Of a stretch of 23,537 bases of DNA, positions 63 to 20,504 are shown in pieces. The DNA comes from an uncultured Halioglobus sp. (GTDB lineage Bacteria; Pseudomonadota; Gammaproteobacteria; Pseudomonadales; Halieaceae), in the NCBI GenBank assembly GCA_905480565.1, contig CAJQQW010000299.1, forward strand, positions 1-23,537, in the 5' to 3' direction. The translations under genes and the position numbers were made by a program. Position 1 is the first letter of the stretch. Each line of letters starts with the position of its first letter. The notes under the pieces are model-generated. The model was given only the letters and a program-made list of their open reading frames with translations. It was not told where the DNA came from and searched no databases.

Positions 63-139
<77 letters not shown>

Positions 140-325
140 AACGTGAGACCCTCGCCATCGGCGGGGGTTTTTCGTTTGAAAGCTAGTCCGGAGGAGACCG
201 CCGACAGCGGTTCGACAAAATGCGACTACAGGCGCATTTTGGTCGCCAGAGCGCAGCGGCGGCGCCCCAAAGGGGTGAGAGCGCGCAAAGCAAGCGCGCT
301 CGAGACAATCCGCCTGGTCCTACCA
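140..325 (+). repeat. Structured tandem repeat unit 1, ending in a tRNA-Val 3' tail
   Basis: This 186-bp unit starts with the terminator hairpin and ends with an exact copy of the last 19 nt of the tRNA gene (307-325). Between these lie three hairpins. The first is CAAAATGCG/CGCATTTTG (216-224 with 233-241). The second is CCCC-AAA-GGGG (265-275). The third is GAGCGCGC/GCGCGCTC (279-286 with 294-301). The next unit has the same three hairpins in the same order with different stem bases, so the fold rather than the sequence is kept. The layout resembles the tyrT distal repeats of E. coli, which also carry 19 bp of the tRNA end (known from the literature). Function unknown. Confidence 0.85.
149..172 (+). 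terminator. Rho-independent terminator after tRNA-Val (first copy)
   Basis: An 8-bp stem, CCCTCGCC (149-156) with GGCGGGGG (160-167, one T-G pair), closes a 3-nt loop and is followed by five T. The same hairpin and T-run recur at 335-358. Confidence 0.85.
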
Positions 326-507
326 AATGACAAACCCTCGCCATCGGCGGGGGTTTTTCGTTTGAGGGTTTCGCTGGTTTGAAGCGCCGAAGGCGGTCGA
401 CAAATCACGACCCAAGGAGTGATTTGCATGGAGTCGCTTGCGACGACACCCGAAGGGTCAAAACGCGAGAGGCAATCGCGTTTTGATTAATCCGCCTGGT
501 CCTACCA
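326..507 (+). repeat. Structured tandem repeat unit 2, ending in a tRNA-Val 3' tail
   Basis: This 182-bp unit is the second copy. It opens with the duplicated terminator and ends with the third copy of the 19-nt tRNA tail (489-507). Its hairpins are CAAATCAC/GTGATTTG (401-408 with 419-426), ACCC-GAA-GGGT (448-458) and CAAAACGCG/CGCGTTTTG (459-467 with 477-485). The terminator and tRNA tail are nearly identical to unit 1, but the hairpin stems have diverged in a compensatory way. The last tail lies about 100 bp before an integrase gene, so it also fits an attachment-site core. Confidence 0.85.
335..358 (+). terminator. Rho-independent terminator, second copy within repeat unit 2
   Basis: Stem CCCTCGCC (335-342) with GGCGGGGG (346-353), loop ATC, then five T. 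It is identical to the terminator behind the tRNA and is part of the tandem repeat. Confidence 0.8.
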
Positions 508-14415: not shown

Positions 14416-14446
14416 TTCATTAGCCACGCAATGTGGCTTTAATGAA
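14416..14446 (+). promoter_or_regulatory. Strong hairpin upstream of the MFS transporter gene
   Basis: TTCATTA-GCCAC (14416-14427) pairs with GTGGC-(TT bulge)-TAATGAA (14433-14446) around a 5-nt loop, giving 12 bp with one bulge. No proper T-run follows, so it is more likely an mRNA leader structure or operator than a simple terminator. The rest of 14292-14502 has no gene. Confidence 0.45.
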
Positions 14447-14502
14447 TGCTCGGCCTATCGATTCCGGATACCTACAAAAAACCAAATCGGAGCCACGCGA
14501 AG

Positions 14503-15717
14503 ATGAATGAGTTTTCTCAGGGTTGGAGGCCTCTGCTAGCCGCCACTATCGGCACCATGTGCGGCATTTTCACTCTGACGAACTACTCGCAGGGGTTTTT
14601 TGTAGGCCCCGTCACGGCAGAGTTTGGTTGGACACCGCCGCAGTTTTTCCTGAGCTACACCGTCATGATGTGTCTAGGCCTTATCACTGGCCCCATTGTT
14701 GGTTCTCTGGTCAAACGACATGGATTGCGCAGTATCGGCATATTCGGGCTCATTGGGCACTCCCTGGCTTACGTGCTCCTTTCATTCAACACGGGGTCCT
14801 TGGCCGTCTGGTGTGCAAGTTGGGCGCTGCTCGGTTTGCTTGGAGCAGGCTCCTTGCCAATAGTGTGGACCGGCGTCCTTAATGGCTGGTTCACAAAGCA
14901 CCGTGGCAAGGCTATTGGGATCACGATGATGGGAACGGGGTTGGGAGCCTTCATACTTCCGCCCATTGTGGAGTTCGTAATCTCAAATTATGGCTGGCGT
15001 CTGGGGTACAGAACTATCGGATTGGGAGCGATGTGCATATCACTGCCGATTGTTTTCTCTCTGTTTCGCGAGAACACCACAGCGCAAACCGGAGACGCGG
15101 GTGCGACAGGGCCGACTTCATGGGGCATTACTCGCTCTCAGGCCATGCGAACTACTAATTTCTGGCTACTTGGCGCCGTAATGTTCGTAACTGTTATCGT
15201 TCTTACCGGCTTGTTGTCCAACTTCCCGCGAATCATGGGCGAACAAGGTTTCGCGCCAAGCGCGATTGCAGGCATCGCATCGGTAATGGGTATTACCGTG
15301 GTGATTGGTCGTCTTGCGGTTGGGATCCTAGTCGATAAGTTTTGGGCGCCCGGTGTCGCCGCCGTTTTTTTTATGCTCCCGACCATCGCTCTTCTAATAA
15401 TCTTAAGAGGGGATGTGGGTACTTCAACCGCAATGATGATCGCTATCATGATTGGTCTGGCGGCCGGAGCTGAGCTGGATCTGCTGGCATACCTGACAAG
15501 TACGTTCTTTGGACCAGACCATTACCCGGAGATTTTCGGCGCCATCATTGCCTTTTTCTTAGTGGGTGCGGGCATTGCCCCACCGCTGTTCGGGGCTGTC
15601 GCGCAGGCCACAGGCGGCTACGCGACAATGCTTAGCGTGGCCGTGGGTATGCTTGTAGCCTGTATCGCCATGTTCCTGGCTATGGGGCGTTACCCAGAGC
15701 AGGTACGATCGCCTTAA
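14503..15717 (+). CDS. MFS transporter, monocarboxylate/organic-acid type
   Basis: A 404-aa protein from ATG 14503 with about 12 hydrophobic helices. This start follows GGAG by 10 nt and matches the family's usual N-terminus (MNEFSQGWRPLL). An in-frame ATG at 14446 would add 19 polar residues and begin inside a hairpin. The first-helix pattern GIFTLTNYSQGFFVGPVTAEFGW and the loop R-G-K-A-I-G-I (residues 147-153) are typical of oxalate/formate and monocarboxylate porters. It sits among aromatic-catabolism genes and converges with an arylsulfatase gene. Uptake of an aromatic or dicarboxylic acid is the best guess. Confidence 0.88.
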   Translation: MNEFSQGWRPLLAATIGTMCGIFTLTNYSQGFFVGPVTAEFGWTPPQFFLSYTVMMCLGLITGPIVGSLVKRHGLRSIGIFGLIGHSLAYVLLSFNTGSLAVWCASWALLGLLGAGSLPIVWTGVLNGWFTKHRGKAIGITMMGTGLGAFILPPIVEFVISNYGWRLGYRTIGLGAMCISLPIVFSLFRENTTAQTGDAGATGPTSWGITRSQAMRTTNFWLLGAVMFVTVIVLTGLLSNFPRIMGEQGFAPSAIAGIASVMGITVVIGRLAVGILVDKFWAPGVAAVFFMLPTIALLIILRGDVGTSTAMMIAIMIGLAAGAELDLLAYLTSTFFGPDHYPEIFGAIIAFFLVGAGIAPPLFGAVAQATGGYATMLSVAVGMLVACIAMFLAMGRYPEQVRSP

Positions 15718-15832
15718 AGCAAGCCGCAGATCCGCAAAGCTATACTCCAGCTGGAGCTGCAGTGCCACACCAAGCGCGCTAACGGCCTGATCTCGAGATA
15801 GATCGCAGCCAAGCCGTCTACTTTCAAAACCC

Positions 15833-17521
15833 TTAATCAGTCGGTAGCGGTTCCGGCGGCAGGATGCGGAAAGGCCCCTCAGGCAATACGACATTGTTCT
15901 CTGCTACGTAGCGCTCCCACGCCGCCTCAAGCTTGGCAAGCGTCTCGGGCTCGTCCTCAGCGAGGTTGTTCTGCTCAGCAGGATCAGCATCGAGATCAAA
16001 CAGCAGCCAACGATCATCGCTTAGAGGCTTTGGCATCCGCACGGCCTTCCAATTGCCGACCTTAATTGCTCGGCGGCCCCAGATTTCCACGCCGACATAA
16101 TCCCCATCGGTTCGCACGGAGTCAGATTCGTTTTTCATAAGCCGAGTGATGCTACGTCCCGAAAACTGGCTTTCTTCAAACGGTATATCCGCCAACTCCA
16201 TAATCGTCGGCGCGAAGTCTGTAATGCTGACCGTTTCCGTTGATATCCTGCCCGGCGACGAGATATCTGCTGAAGAAATAATAGCGGGCACGCGAATGCC
16301 ACCTTCAAACGTGGAACCCTTGTAGCCTCTGAATGGCGTACTACTGACCCAGCCCCAACCTCGATCAAACAGCGTGAAAGACCCCGGCCTGCCCATGTTC
16401 TCGTAGCGGTTGTCGAAGGTGACGGCATGATCTCGGACAGCAGGCGGTGCGTGACCGGCATCCCAGCTGTCAGCGCCATTGTCGGAGATGAAGATAACGA
16501 CAGTATCCTTTGCGAGATCCTTGAACTCTAGATACGCAAGCAATCGATCGAGCTCAGTGTCGAGCTTCTGGATCATGCCCGCGTAGATTTCCATCACTCG
16601 CGACGACCGCCGCTGACTCTCTACATCCAACTCATCCCAAGCGGGAACGCCTTCCGGTCGCGGCGCAGAGCTCTGCGCCTCGTCAAACAATCCCAGCTCG
16701 CGCTGCTTAGTGAGTCGTTCCTGCCACAGGATGTCGTAGCCCTGATCATAGCGGCCGGCGAAGGCATCAGCGTCATTGGAGGGGAGTTGGAGAGGCCAAT
16801 GCGGCGCGGTAAACGCCAGATAGGCAAAGAATGGCTTACCGGTGTGCGCCGTGCTCTCGAGACCCGCGATCACTTCCGAGGTAAAACTCGTCGTGGAATA
16901 GAAGTCATCCTCAAGTTGCGGATTGAGCACACCGTTCTTGCGATACAGAAGTTTCGGGCGATGCAGATCAGGACCCAGAAGATCCGAGTAATGGCTACCG
17001 CCGCCAAAGCTGAAACTCAGCGCATGATCGAAGCCCCGCGCTCCGGGGCTCAACTCACGCTTCATTCCCAGGTGCCACTTACCCGCCATCACAGTGCGAT
17101 AACCGTGCTCGGACAGGCGTTCGGCAATCGTCGGCACCTCCTCACTTAAATGACCTTCGTAGCCAGGCAGCCCCATCTGGTTGTCAGCCACGGTCTCGGC
17201 CATATTTCCGATACCCGCGATATGATTGTCCATACCCGACATGAGCATGGCCCGTGCTGGCGAGCAGGTAGGCGCCGCATAGAAGCTCGTAAACATCACA
17301 CCATTCTCGGCGAGCCGTGTGAGCGTAGGTGTTTCGATCTCACTGCCGAAAGGCTCGATGTCGGCGAAACCCATATCGTCGACAACTACCAGCAGGAAAT
17401 TGGGTCGAGTTTCTATGGCCGACAGCTCCGCCGGTTTAGTTTCTTCCAAGGCTTCACGTTGGCAACTAACCCCACCAGCGGCGAGCATACAAAGAATAAG
17501 TAATCGGGTTATTAGCTTCAC
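15833..17521 (-). CDS. Exported arylsulfatase (formylglycine-dependent, AtsA-like)
   Basis: A 562-aa sulfatase. The N-terminal hydrophobic segment ends at Cys20 (AGGVSC), a loose lipobox, so it is probably a lipoprotein or periplasmic. The alkaline-phosphatase-fold core has LLVVVDDMGFADIEPFGSEI (metal D48, D49). CSPAR (86-90) is where Cys is converted to formylglycine, and GKWHLGM, APHWPL and SDNGADSW follow. Size and motif spacing fit the Pseudomonas AtsA-type S1 family. Activity needs a formylglycine-generating enzyme encoded elsewhere. It would release sulfate from aryl or alkyl sulfates. Single gene, convergent with the MFS transporter; the 115-bp gap between them holds a perfect palindrome CTCCAGCTGGAG (15745-15756). 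Confidence 0.9.
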   Translation of the reverse strand: MKLITRLLILCMLAAGGVSCQREALEETKPAELSAIETRPNFLLVVVDDMGFADIEPFGSEIETPTLTRLAENGVMFTSFYAAPTCSPARAMLMSGMDNHIAGIGNMAETVADNQMGLPGYEGHLSEEVPTIAERLSEHGYRTVMAGKWHLGMKRELSPGARGFDHALSFSFGGGSHYSDLLGPDLHRPKLLYRKNGVLNPQLEDDFYSTTSFTSEVIAGLESTAHTGKPFFAYLAFTAPHWPLQLPSNDADAFAGRYDQGYDILWQERLTKQRELGLFDEAQSSAPRPEGVPAWDELDVESQRRSSRVMEIYAGMIQKLDTELDRLLAYLEFKDLAKDTVVIFISDNGADSWDAGHAPPAVRDHAVTFDNRYENMGRPGSFTLFDRGWGWVSSTPFRGYKGSTFEGGIRVPAIISSADISSPGRISTETVSITDFAPTIMELADIPFEESQFSGRSITRLMKNESDSVRTDGDYVGVEIWGRRAIKVGNWKAVRMPKPLSDDRWLLFDLDADPAEQNNLAEDEPETLAKLEAAWERYVAENNVVLPEGPFRILPPEPLPTD

Positions 17522-17564
17522 GTGATGACCTCTCGATGGAATTTCAAGCTACCGTTCAAAGCAA

Positions 17565-17864
17565 CTACCTCGCAGCCCCGCCAACGAAGGCTTGCTGAAA
17601 GAAATCCAATGTTCTGCGCTGCGCTAGCTCGGCTGCTTGCTCTCGAAAACTGGGCCGGACCGCGTTCGCAAACGCATGGCCTACCCCTTCGCACTCGAAG
17701 CACTGATCTGTGGGTCGGCCGCTATCCTTGACCACGTCGCGAGCCGAAGCAAAAATCATCGGGTCGTTCAGACCGAAGTGAAACCGGCAACGCGCCGCAG
17801 ATGTCGCCAGATAGACCGACAGGTTACGGCCATGTCTTGCCGTGGCTTTCACCCACTTCTCCAT
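17565..17864 (-). pseudogene. Dienelactone-hydrolase family C-terminal remnant
   Basis: This 99-codon frame shows RCRFHFGLNDPMI, then EGVGHAFANAVRPSF and AAELAQRRTLDFFQQ. That is the C-terminal third of dienelactone hydrolase (Asp of the GLND strand, His of GHAF as triad members). The N-terminal two thirds, with the nucleophile Cys/Ser motif, is missing. Upstream to 17939 I see only a 75-nt gap to galB. It is probably a decayed last gene of the galD-ligK-galB operon. It explains most of the otherwise empty stretch 17522-17939; nothing else is apparent there. Confidence 0.6.
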
Positions 17865-17939
17865 GCCCTATGCCCTTGTATTGCTATTTGCGATGCCACA
17901 TGCCCTGAATGAGAGAGGTGTGTCCCTGCGAATCGCTCC

Positions 17940-18674
17940 TCACAATTCATCGACGCATCGCGGATAGACGCTCTGAAAGCCCTCCGCATACTTCACGCTC
18001 TTGCCGCCCGCCTGGCCACCAGAGTTTCTCCGGAAGTGGTTGCCCCGGTTTTCAGCAACGTTCTCGTAGAAATGCCAAAGGTGTTCCTGCCCCTGCATAC
18101 ATTGAATCGCGGCCCATTTTTCGTCCCAGACCTCTGAAATATCTAAGAAAACATCGGGCTTCCAGCCCATCTGTTCAGTCTGGTGGGGCTCAAACAGATA
18201 AAGTTGTGGGGCACCAAGAACCTGTTCCTCAGGATTATGACCCCAGGCCTGCGCAATCATGCGGCATTGCATCGCGACCTCCGTGGCATACATATGGTCG
18301 GTGTTATAGGGATCGTACTTGGAATGGCTCAGCATGAAGGTGGGCTGTACCTTACGGATCAGATCGACAATTTTGTATTTGCCGTCTGTATCTATCTCCA
18401 GCGGATAATCACCAAAATCAAAGAACTGAATATCGTGGGCATTGAGCGCGGCTGCCGCTGCTTCGGCCTCATCACGCCGAACGGCTTTCACTTCGTCCAG
18501 ACTCATATTGCCTTTTTTCCACAGCTTGGCGGATTCACCCCTTTCGCCGAAAGACAGGCAGGCGATCGTGACGTCATAGCCGCGCTTCTGATGGAGTGCG
18601 ATGGCGCCACCGCACCGCCAAACAAAGTCCGCCGCGTGGGCACTGATTACCAGAACTGATTTGTTGTCACTCAT
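17940..18674 (-). CDS. galB: 4-oxalomesaconate hydratase, GalB-like (PIG-L/LmbE family)
   Basis: A 244-aa protein of the zinc-dependent PIG-L/LmbE family. The signature SAHAADFVWRCGGAI (H13, D16), then CLSFGERGESAKLWKKG and LSHSKYDPYNTDH (H117, D121, H127), match GalB of Pseudomonas putida gallate catabolism rather than deacetylases, which have HPDDE. It hydrates 4-oxalomesaconate or its keto tautomer to 4-carboxy-4-hydroxy-2-oxoadipate. In Sphingobium this step is done by the unrelated amidohydrolase LigJ. The gene follows ligK by 39 nt in the same operon. Cytoplasmic. Confidence 0.9.
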   Translation of the reverse strand: MSDNKSVLVISAHAADFVWRCGGAIALHQKRGYDVTIACLSFGERGESAKLWKKGNMSLDEVKAVRRDEAEAAAAALNAHDIQFFDFGDYPLEIDTDGKYKIVDLIRKVQPTFMLSHSKYDPYNTDHMYATEVAMQCRMIAQAWGHNPEEQVLGAPQLYLFEPHQTEQMGWKPDVFLDISEVWDEKWAAIQCMQGQEHLWHFYENVAENRGNHFRRNSGGQAGGKSVKYAEGFQSVYPRCVDEL

Positions 18675-18713
18675 TTTTTTCTATACCTCATGGTCCATGT
18701 TCATAGCCGTTGT

Positions 18714-19415
18714 CTATGCTTCAACCAGATCGGAGAGCGAGTCGAGATAAACGAGACCCGCCTCTTCTAGGCGCGGGCGCATGTTGTACATATCGAGGCC
18801 GAGTTCACCGCCGGCCAGGCGTTCCCGTTTGCTCGCCTCGTTATCTTCGCGAGCCTGCGCAGCATCTCGGGCGGCGTCGGCGCTGCTACGGGGCACGACA
18901 ACGACACCGTCGTCATCCGCCACCACCACATCGCCCGGCGTTACGAGTTGTCCTGCGCAGACCAGAGGAACGTTGACCGCGCCCAGGGTATTTTTCACCG
19001 TACCCTTGGCGGACACGGCGCGGGACCAGACCGGAAAGTTCATCTCGTGAAGGTCGGCCACATCGCGGACACCGGCATCAATAATCAAACCGCGGACGCC
19101 CCGGGCTTGGCAGGAAGTCGCCAGCAGGTCACCAAACATCCCGTCCGTATTGTCTGTGGTGCAACCGACCACCAGGACGTCGCCCGGCTGGCATAGCTCA
19201 ATCGCGACGTGGATCATCCAGTTATCTCCGGGTTGGGCCAGGACTGTAATAGCGCTGCCCCCGATCTGGGCGCGCGGATATATTGGGGTGATGTAGGGCT
19301 TCATGAGGCCTGAGCGGCCCTGTGCCTCGTGCACCGTTGCCACACCGAACGCAGCCAGGGCATCCACAGTGTCTGCACTCGCTCGGTCAATGTTTCTTAC
19401 TGCCACTGTCTTCAT
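18714..19415 (-). CDS. ligK: 4-carboxy-4-hydroxy-2-oxoadipate aldolase (LigK/GalC/ProA, RraA fold)
   Basis: A 233-aa member of the RraA-like class II aldolase family. Recognisable elements are GDLLATS (95-101), [10 protein letters not shown] (109-118) with R117 and metal-ligand D118, and the conserved [15 protein letters not shown] strand. It splits 4-carboxy-4-hydroxy-2-oxoadipate into pyruvate and oxaloacetate, the last step of protocatechuate 4,5-cleavage and gallate routes. The start ATG directly abuts the stop of the galD gene (TAAATG), so translation is coupled. The substrate assignment rests on the surrounding ligC/ligI/galB/galD genes. Confidence 0.9.
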
Positions 19416-20504
19416 TTATGGACCTCGCTTGGCTGGGGCAGGAACGAAAAGCACGCCACGGCTGAGCAGTCGTGCCGTGCGCAGTACTCCCGCTTTCTTG
19501 ATCTCTGGAAGCTCACCTGATTCGTCGACCTCAAGGGAGATAGAGAATTCTCCCGAAGGATGCTCAACGGAAATCTGCTTGGTCTCACCTTGCGGCACAT
19601 TGACCAGACCTTCGGCCACCGAGCCCGGGATGATGGCCGCCGTTGCGGCCGATACCGCTCCCAGCACGCCTACGGCGCTGTGGCATTTGTGAGGGATAAA
19701 GGTTCGGGTATTGATCAATCCGCCGTGCAGAGCCGGGGAAATCAGACACATCTTTGGCACCGCTTTGTCAGCGACATCACCGAGGTTCATCATTGGCCCC
19801 AGTTCGATACGGATGGACTCCAGTCGGGTTTTCAGAGCCTGATCGCTGTTGAGCTTTTCCGGGCTTTCATGCCCCGTCAGACCAAAGTCTTTAGCCAGTA
19901 ACGCCACCACCGGCATCCCGTTATCCACGCAAGTGACCCGAACCCCACCAACGGAATCAACAACGTTCCCAGTGGGTAGCAAGGCACCACAAATAGAACC
20001 GGCCACATCCAGATAGTTACAGACAACCGCAGCCGATGTGCCGGGCACACCATCAATCGCCGTATCACCCTCGTATTCCATAACGCCATCTGGTGTGGCC
20101 AGAAGCAGTGCACAGAGCTTCCCGCTATTGACCATATGCACGGTAACGCAGGTCTTTCCGGGTTGAGCCCGGACCAGCCCCGCTTCAACAGCGAACGGCC
20201 CCACACCCGCTAATATGTTGCCGCAGTTGGGCGTGGTATCGACCACATCTTGGCCTACAACCACTTGGGCGAAAAGAAAGTCGATGTCAGCATCAGCACG
20301 GGTCGAGGGCCCAACGATGGCGACTTTGCTCGTGAGGGGGTCTGCACCGCCCAAACCGTCTATTTGCCGCGAGCCTCGGCCAACAGCATCAACAAGTATG
20401 GCGTTCCGCACATCAGCTTCAGATGGTAGATCAGAGGCCAGAAAGTAAAGCCCTTTCGAGCTACCTCCGCGCAACTGCATGAAAGGGATCTCCAGCTGTT
20501 TCAT
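19416..20504 (-). CDS. galD: 4-oxalomesaconate tautomerase (GalD/LigU, PrpF family)
   Basis: A 362-aa PrpF-family isomerase. N-terminal MRGG-type segment (MQLRGGSSKGLYFLASDLP), GLGGADPLTSKVAIV with K60, and TPNCGNILAG with C94 are the family's conserved stretches. The Lys/Cys pair corresponds to the residues implicated in LigU allylic isomerisation. A second NCG-like site is absent. It converts the ring-opening-derived 4-oxalomesaconate to the tautomer used by the hydratase. It is the first gene of the galD-ligK-galB operon, divergent from the double-HTH regulator. GalD and LigU belong to one family and cannot be told apart here. Confidence 0.88.
   Translation of the reverse strand: MKQLEIPFMQLRGGSSKGLYFLASDLPSEADVRNAILVDAVGRGSRQIDGLGGADPLTSKVAIVGPSTRADADIDFLFAQVVVGQDVVDTTPNCGNILAGVGPFAVEAGLVRAQPGKTCVTVHMVNSGKLCALLLATPDGVMEYEGDTAIDGVPGTSAAVVCNYLDVAGSICGALLPTGNVVDSVGGVRVTCVDNGMPVVALLAKDFGLTGHESPEKLNSDQALKTRLESIRIELGPMMNLGDVADKAVPKMCLISPALHGGLINTRTFIPHKCHSAVGVLGAVSAATAAIIPGSVAEGLVNVPQGETKQISVEHPSGEFSISLEVDESGELPEIKKAGVLRTARLLSRGVLFVPAPAKRGP

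Follow-up and report, generated by a model that had tools for sequence, protein, structure and literature searches.

The window, by which we mean the whole 23,537-nucleotide stretch of DNA analysed here, comes from an assembly assigned to an uncultured Halioglobus sp. and starts 62 bp upstream of a tRNA-Val(GAC) gene that ARAGORN places at 63-139. As a preliminary description of this DNA had reported, the 19-nt tail of this tRNA, AATCCGCCTGGTCCTACCA, occurs exactly at 121-139, 307-325 and 489-507, with spacings of 186 and 182 bp. These three sites are the only matches with up to two mismatches in the assembly (3,115,436 bases, 74% complete), whereas the reversed pattern, searched in the same assembly as a control, gave 0 matches, which excludes chance as the source of the three copies. 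The features of the locus are as follows.

63-139, + strand: intact tRNA-Val(GAC) (ARAGORN; Rfam tRNA, 73.5 bits)
121-139, + strand: tail of the functional tRNA, A58 to A76 (sequence)
140-177, + strand: hairpin and T run resembling an intrinsic terminator, 3' of the tRNA (fold of 140-180, z -5.1; repeat D1)
178-210, + strand: unit 1 (U1) spacer, ending in the T-stem 5' strand GCGG; the inverted arm of the tRNA 3' end is weak (sequence)
211-215, + strand: unit 1 T-loop 5' half, TTCGA (sequence, model R1)
216-307, + strand: unit 1 insert, right end accurate to 1 nt either way (R1, 119.9 bits at 205-314; inverted repeat I3; folds)
~216-241, 265-275 and 279-301, + strand: unit 1 insert hairpins, respectively hairpin A, a CCCC/GGGG hairpin and the terminal hairpin (folds, inverted repeat I3)
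307-325, + strand: tail copy 2 (sequence)
326-363, + strand: terminator copy 2 (repeat; terminator consensus scan)
364-395, + strand: unit 2 (U2) spacer, its 3' end being the T-stem strand GGCG(G) (sequence)
396-400, + strand: unit 2 T-loop 5' half, GTCGA (sequence, model R1)
401-489, + strand: unit 2 insert, of another lineage, with a terminal hairpin at 458-486 (R1, 101.1 bits at 390-496)
489-507, + strand: tail copy 3 (sequence)
508-1037, + strand: left end of a tyrosine-integrase element, in which an ORF starting at 611 encodes the N-terminal part of the enzyme (74% identity over 154 aa to the integrase of genome G156)

The terminator consensus scan listed the second terminator copy (326-363) and not the first (140-177). 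Downstream of the third tail lies the left end of the integrase-bearing element, with no further unit. When 63-560 is folded as RNA, it is far more stable than its shuffled counterparts (z -7.8).

Each unit is a copy of the tRNA 3' end whose T-loop is interrupted at the junction of positions 58 and 59 by a structured insert about 90 nt long. The order of parts is a spacer, the 5' strand of the T-stem followed by the T-loop half (TTCGA or, in unit 2, GTCGA), and then some 90 nt of hairpins ending on the next tail. We define membership by a T-loop split at 58|59 by a hairpin insert, a criterion derived here from E. coli and relatives, and both window units have this split. The preliminary description gave the tails and their arrangement correctly but missed the insert, which is the defining part of the unit. 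Its further statement that the units are tandem and ~184 bp long holds for the spacing, but the units are not tandem duplicates. Ungapped identity between the two units is limited to the tail and terminator (59 nt, 93%), while outside these it is structure rather than sequence that is kept (65% identity), and each unit is nearer to units of other genomes than to its neighbour: U1 is 90% identical to a unit of HTCC2080 and 87% identical to units at tRNA-Phe, and U2 is 99% identical to a unit of genome G122. Judged by these sequences, the two units are of separate ancestry and did not arise by duplication, and we reject simple tandem duplication as a full account of the locus.

The contig that carries the window is, on sequence comparison, probably mis-binned. 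Positions 1037-1760 are 99% and 97% identical to two genomes of the genus that we label g12 (G116 and G155), positions 508-1760 have no match in 17 other genomes of the assigned genus, g1, and the closest relatives of both units lie in g12 as well. The other lineage in which the preliminary description saw an E. coli-like arrangement would therefore be that of an HTCC2080-like bacterium. Several other observations concern the same DNA. The ORF at 611-1122 (167 aa) joins the N-terminal part of the tyrosine integrase, near 1037, to the shifted 3' end of a gene for a pyridine nucleotide-disulphide oxidoreductase, of which G116 has a complete copy. Genes for MFS transporter, sulfatase, PIG-L, RraA-like and PrpF proteins are clustered at 14446-20501, resembling a catabolic cluster, and genes for a TonB receptor and a LysR regulator lie near by. 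The source assembly also holds a third, weaker unit, with a short tRNA-Arg-like tail (C76:16843-16941).

Units of this kind recur in related bacteria. A covariance model built from five units (R1) has matches in 79 of 140 genomes of the family at E <= 0.01, and a second model built from 128 hits (R2) has matches in 74 of 369 genomes of the class at E <= 1e-3 and in 14 of 398 genomes drawn from the phylum at E <= 1e-4; each count includes the window's own genome, and the searches used stricter filters and scored part of the candidates. Carriers include marine gammaproteobacterium HTCC2080 (judged to be genome G028), Halieaceae MAGs, Pseudohalioglobus sediminis, an Ectothiorhodospiraceae bacterium and Microbulbifer yueqingensis. 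The unit structure is thus present in related genomes, and the suggestion that the repeats belong to a general class of tRNA-tail repeat is supported by units at many unrelated tRNA genes in many genomes. Outside cellular genomes, blastn of window 140-507 against phage and plasmid sequences found nothing, and a scan of viral contigs with an exact pattern gave two loci, neither with a model hit; the same pattern gave 71 loci in genome contigs, and 12 of the 73 loci, viral ones included, had model hits.

For the relation of units to their host tRNAs we used 236 distinct units, namely 253 hits in five alignments less one at a locus end and 16 duplicates; the loci are best-scoring or chosen hits rather than a random sample, and the units are not independent. 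A tRNA on the same strand lies within 700 bp upstream of 160 of the 236. Measured from position 59, with one mismatch permitted and a maximum of 18 nt, the host tail is copied over 15-18 nt in 81 of these 160 units, over 7-14 nt in 54 and over fewer than 7 nt in 25, the last class being partly expected because the models themselves end in AATCC-like columns. No tRNA was detected for the remaining 76 units, nine of which give an ARAGORN call when the insert is removed, one of them doubtful. The nearest tRNAs are those for Ser (four anticodons), Val, Arg (five), Lys, Asp, Phe, Gln, Glu and Pro, together with one assignment each to Met and Asn, where the tRNA may lie near by chance. In an earlier set, which comprised 128 hits, the unit's own tRNA tail was found with at most 4 mismatches in 19 positions in 46 cases and with 5-7 mismatches in 19 more; a further 19 had a tRNA and no tail copy, 43 had no upstream tRNA, and one had a tRNA only at more than 1500 bp. 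When the units of that set were compared with the tails of other tRNA types, 28 of 608 comparisons gave a match. Tail copies, for example those at loci L048, L085 and L125, have a fixed start and often end after 7-14 nt, roughly where the T-stem strand ends or further on.

Many units carry, upstream of the insert, an inverted copy of the 3' end of the host tRNA, such as TGGCGGAGAGAGAGG..GAACCC beside tRNA-Ser. In 122 of 144 units this arm scores higher with the host tRNA than with other tRNAs on average, and pairing between spacer and tail prefers the own tail in 58 of 75; no such preference appeared at tRNA-Ser(GGA) (own -9.7, other -10.5), and little at tRNA-Ser(GCT). In both window units the arm is weak, and that of unit 1 was not among the best 45 arms listed. 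The idea that the unit is a tRNA mimic with a free CCA is weakened, since some inverted arms match the complement of the CCA too.

The fold of the insert is conserved by covariation. In an alignment of five units (U1, U2 and those of G028, G029 and G024), 14 of 28 pairs have changed on both sides, and 93.6% of cells are paired, against 30-44% in slid controls. To ask which strand folds, G-U mismatches may be set against A-C mismatches. The ratio is 38:9 in the terminal hairpin (p 2.5e-5, 156 distinct stems), 16:7 in hairpin A (p 0.09, 108 stems) and 6:1 in tRNA acceptor stems at the same loci. G-U pairs are few; the stems were picked regardless of mismatch type, and the units are related, so that the p values are indicative. 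In the inverted arm, wobble-type changes number 80 of 834 and A-C changes 42 of 979, with 224 of the 346 changes being of other kinds. These mismatch patterns lean, though not strongly, towards folding of the sense strand, that is, as RNA, and they disfavour folding of DNA alone.

Island ends at tRNA-Val show that the insert behaves as a separable block. Among 16 distinct partial 3' halves of tRNA-Val found there by pattern, nine have an insert at A58|N59 and seven are empty; the gap measures 87 or 90 nt in eight of the nine occupied halves, and in the other (L104) the tail missed the pattern and the insert was placed by the model. An occupied and an empty island end (L103 and L106) are 96% identical over 55 nt, a stretch of which 27 nt lie beyond the tRNA, and two further ends with different inserts (L108 and L264) match an empty one (L034) in alignment A8. 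The occupied and empty pairs give no sign of a target duplication longer than 1 nt. At the tRNA-Val loci of genus g12 (L103 1-14697, L106, L104 and L069), consecutive islands of 1-9 kb are each ended by a partial tRNA-Val copy, some of which have the T-loop insert. Full tRNA-Ser bodies with a T-loop insert also lie upstream of intact tRNA-Ser at five loci (L118, L120, L202, L203 and L225). Some of these loci also repeat the stretch that precedes the tRNA. When the inserts of 153 units with host tRNAs are compared, 126 pairs within an isotype and 78 pairs across isotypes reach 80% identity or more. Given that such inserts are alike across isotypes while their flanks match the local tRNA, inserts appear to pass between tRNAs.

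The closest described counterpart is the tyrT repeats of E. coli (rtT/rttR), with units of 178 bp and 19-nt copies of the tRNA tail, much as the window has 19-nt tails spaced by 186 and 182 bp. The E. coli T-loop copy is interrupted at the corresponding position, AAGGTTCGA..insert..ATCCTTCC, and the inverted arm, GGGGAAGGATGAGAAGC, reaches a score of 24 with tRNA-Tyr, where 44 tRNA ends of the studied loci give at most 20. The 3' terminus of the annotated rttR (1267-1437) coincides with the final nucleotide of a tail copy. The two systems differ in that the E. coli units stand at a different tRNA, have a diverged insert and are near-identical to each other, whereas the two window units are of different lineages. 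Under model R2 the E. coli units score 9.8, 9.3 and 7.0 bits (E 0.57-2.4), on a par with chance hits in the window, and the three best places in the E. coli locus are these units, in register. The kinship claimed for the window and the tyrT repeats therefore rests on architecture, namely the split T-loop and the tail copies, with an inverted arm that E. coli shares with many units but that is weak in the window, and the model score does not bear it out. Likewise, the Rfam RtT family, which we take to be RF00391, was not found on the window at its gathering score, nor on positions 1-700 at E <= 5. An Aggregatibacter sRNA family, AaHKsRNA22 (RF02902), matches window 205-317 with the same order of hairpins, at 27.9 bits (E 0.0042) and so under its gathering score of 39.8. 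In 229 genomes of the class this family gave nine hits at E <= 1e-3, all below gathering, at least six of which are R2 units; its Rfam entry makes no mention of tRNA. We found no description of the units as a class in the literature searched, subscription papers being mostly beyond reach.

The preliminary description had suggested that the repeats were possibly spawned by repeated site-specific integration. Partial tRNA copies near the complete gene are indeed known after island integration (PMC9897764), and the accessible part of that paper describes such fragments at island ends with neither a T-loop insert nor an inverted arm. The left end of the element that begins at 508 directly follows an intact tRNA-Val in seven of nine other loci examined, and follows a tail behind an insert in the other two (G109 and G029). 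The integrase of G156 carries PF00589, and the window's integrase fragment, searched alone, had no Pfam match. Displaced tRNA-Val fragments start at the anticodon loop and may keep an intact T-loop, from which it appears that the integrase family at tRNA-Val acts at the anticodon loop. This integrase is therefore no evident maker of the units. We consider it very unlikely that the tails are the leftover attachment sites of repeated gain and loss of tyrosine-integrase islands: the position of the third tail, directly before an element end that elsewhere directly follows tRNA-Val, is what such a history would leave, but the insert, the inverted arm and the spread over many tRNAs would go unexplained, and both the covariation and the starts of the displaced copies weaken it.

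Two other kinds of mover were sought and rejected as mobilisers, neither being associated with the units. The integron integrase scored over the cut-off in 33 of 140 family genomes and in 0 of 30 unit-bearing g12 genomes (Fisher p 0.84), and the Y1 transposase (PF01797) was likewise found in 33 of 140 and 0 of 30 (p 0.42), many of the 30 being incomplete MAGs. The window's own assembly (G000, 74% complete) has no integron integrase over the cut-off and no Y1 transposase. Integron attC sites are palindromic, are conserved in structure, occur in arrays and leave no target duplication, and the units resemble them in all these respects. One may therefore picture the unit as a folded single-stranded attachment site, the T-loop as its landing site and the cargo arrays as cassette arrays; a target duplication of at most 1 nt in the pairs seen, the inverted T-arm copy, the L103 arrays, in which 1-9 kb of cargo separates the units, and a structure kept over sequence would all suit this picture. 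However, the units have tRNA-specific flanks, their covariation points, if not strongly, to the sense strand, the cargo arrays are consistent with ordinary islands that integrate at the anticodon loop and whose end copies come with or without the insert, and the expected integrase shows no association, so that we judge integron-like recombination to be decidedly unlikely. A palindrome of the REP or IS200/IS605 type, moved by a Y1 transposase with the T-loop as its target, we regard as highly improbable in view of the lack of association with PF01797, even though hairpins near both insert ends, the missing target duplication and the TTCGA before the insert are in keeping with it. The accessible parts of two papers bear on the same point, one assigning rtT-like elements in Enterobacteria to BIMEs (2010; PMC2965389) and the other listing rttR among REP-containing sRNAs (2025; PMC12306157). 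Nor need anything be mobile: slippage or template switching at the T-arm palindromes, along with gene conversion, could have produced and spread the copies. That the tail and terminator repeat at 93%, that some genomes have near-identical tandem units (L058, L060 and L080, for example) and that four island-end inserts at L103 resemble the unit at L103:88 all speak for such local duplication, yet the divergence of U1 from U2, each nearer to units elsewhere, and the 78 cross-isotype pairs with flanks matching the local tRNA make it, in our view, unlikely as the general explanation.

We propose instead that the window holds an array of T-loop-insert units, that is, non-functional spare tRNA 3' ends with an insert, which accumulate and are read as an rtT-like RNA, an account in which our belief and our doubt are about evenly matched. 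Its direct support lies in the anatomy of the units, their specificity for the local tRNA, the covariation, the occupied and empty sites, and the separate ancestry of the window units. The insert would be gained and lost as a block in spare tRNA copies that stem from duplication or island integration; it would be confined to such copies because in the sole functional copy it would destroy the tRNA. Units would then accumulate beside the tRNA. By analogy with rttR, which ends at a CCA, a unit may be transcribed in the same sense as the tRNA, by polymerase that passes the terminator, and the transcript cut back to the CCA of the tail; given the terminator that separates tRNA and unit, the predicted transcription is not assured. 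The product would be a structured RNA with a tRNA-like 3' end, similar to rtT RNA. The many truncated tails, the weak inverted arm of the window units, the mixed evidence on the strand and the chance-level scores of the E. coli repeats also count against this account. A bolder reading, which we offer tentatively as possible though doubtful, is that the insert is a new kind of mobile non-coding element. Its target would be the T-loop, the one sequence common to almost all tRNA genes, which it would enter precisely at 58|59 with no duplication of the target. It would move from one isotype to another, possibly by way of an RNA intermediate, and be maintained in spare tRNA copies as an RNA of the sense strand whose 3' end resembles that of a tRNA.

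The E. coli tyrT repeats have long been an oddity with one debated RNA product. From the evidence above, they look like one member of a general and largely undescribed class. For those who study such elements, the class offers a defined site (T-loop 58|59), a defined 3' end (the CCA of the tail) and natural pairs of occupied and empty sites. Its units may also mislead the annotation of tRNAs and the calling of island boundaries. If the tyrT repeats, the Aggregatibacter sRNA family and the units at other tRNAs are one class, then a structured non-coding unit would stand at tRNA genes across many gammaproteobacteria.
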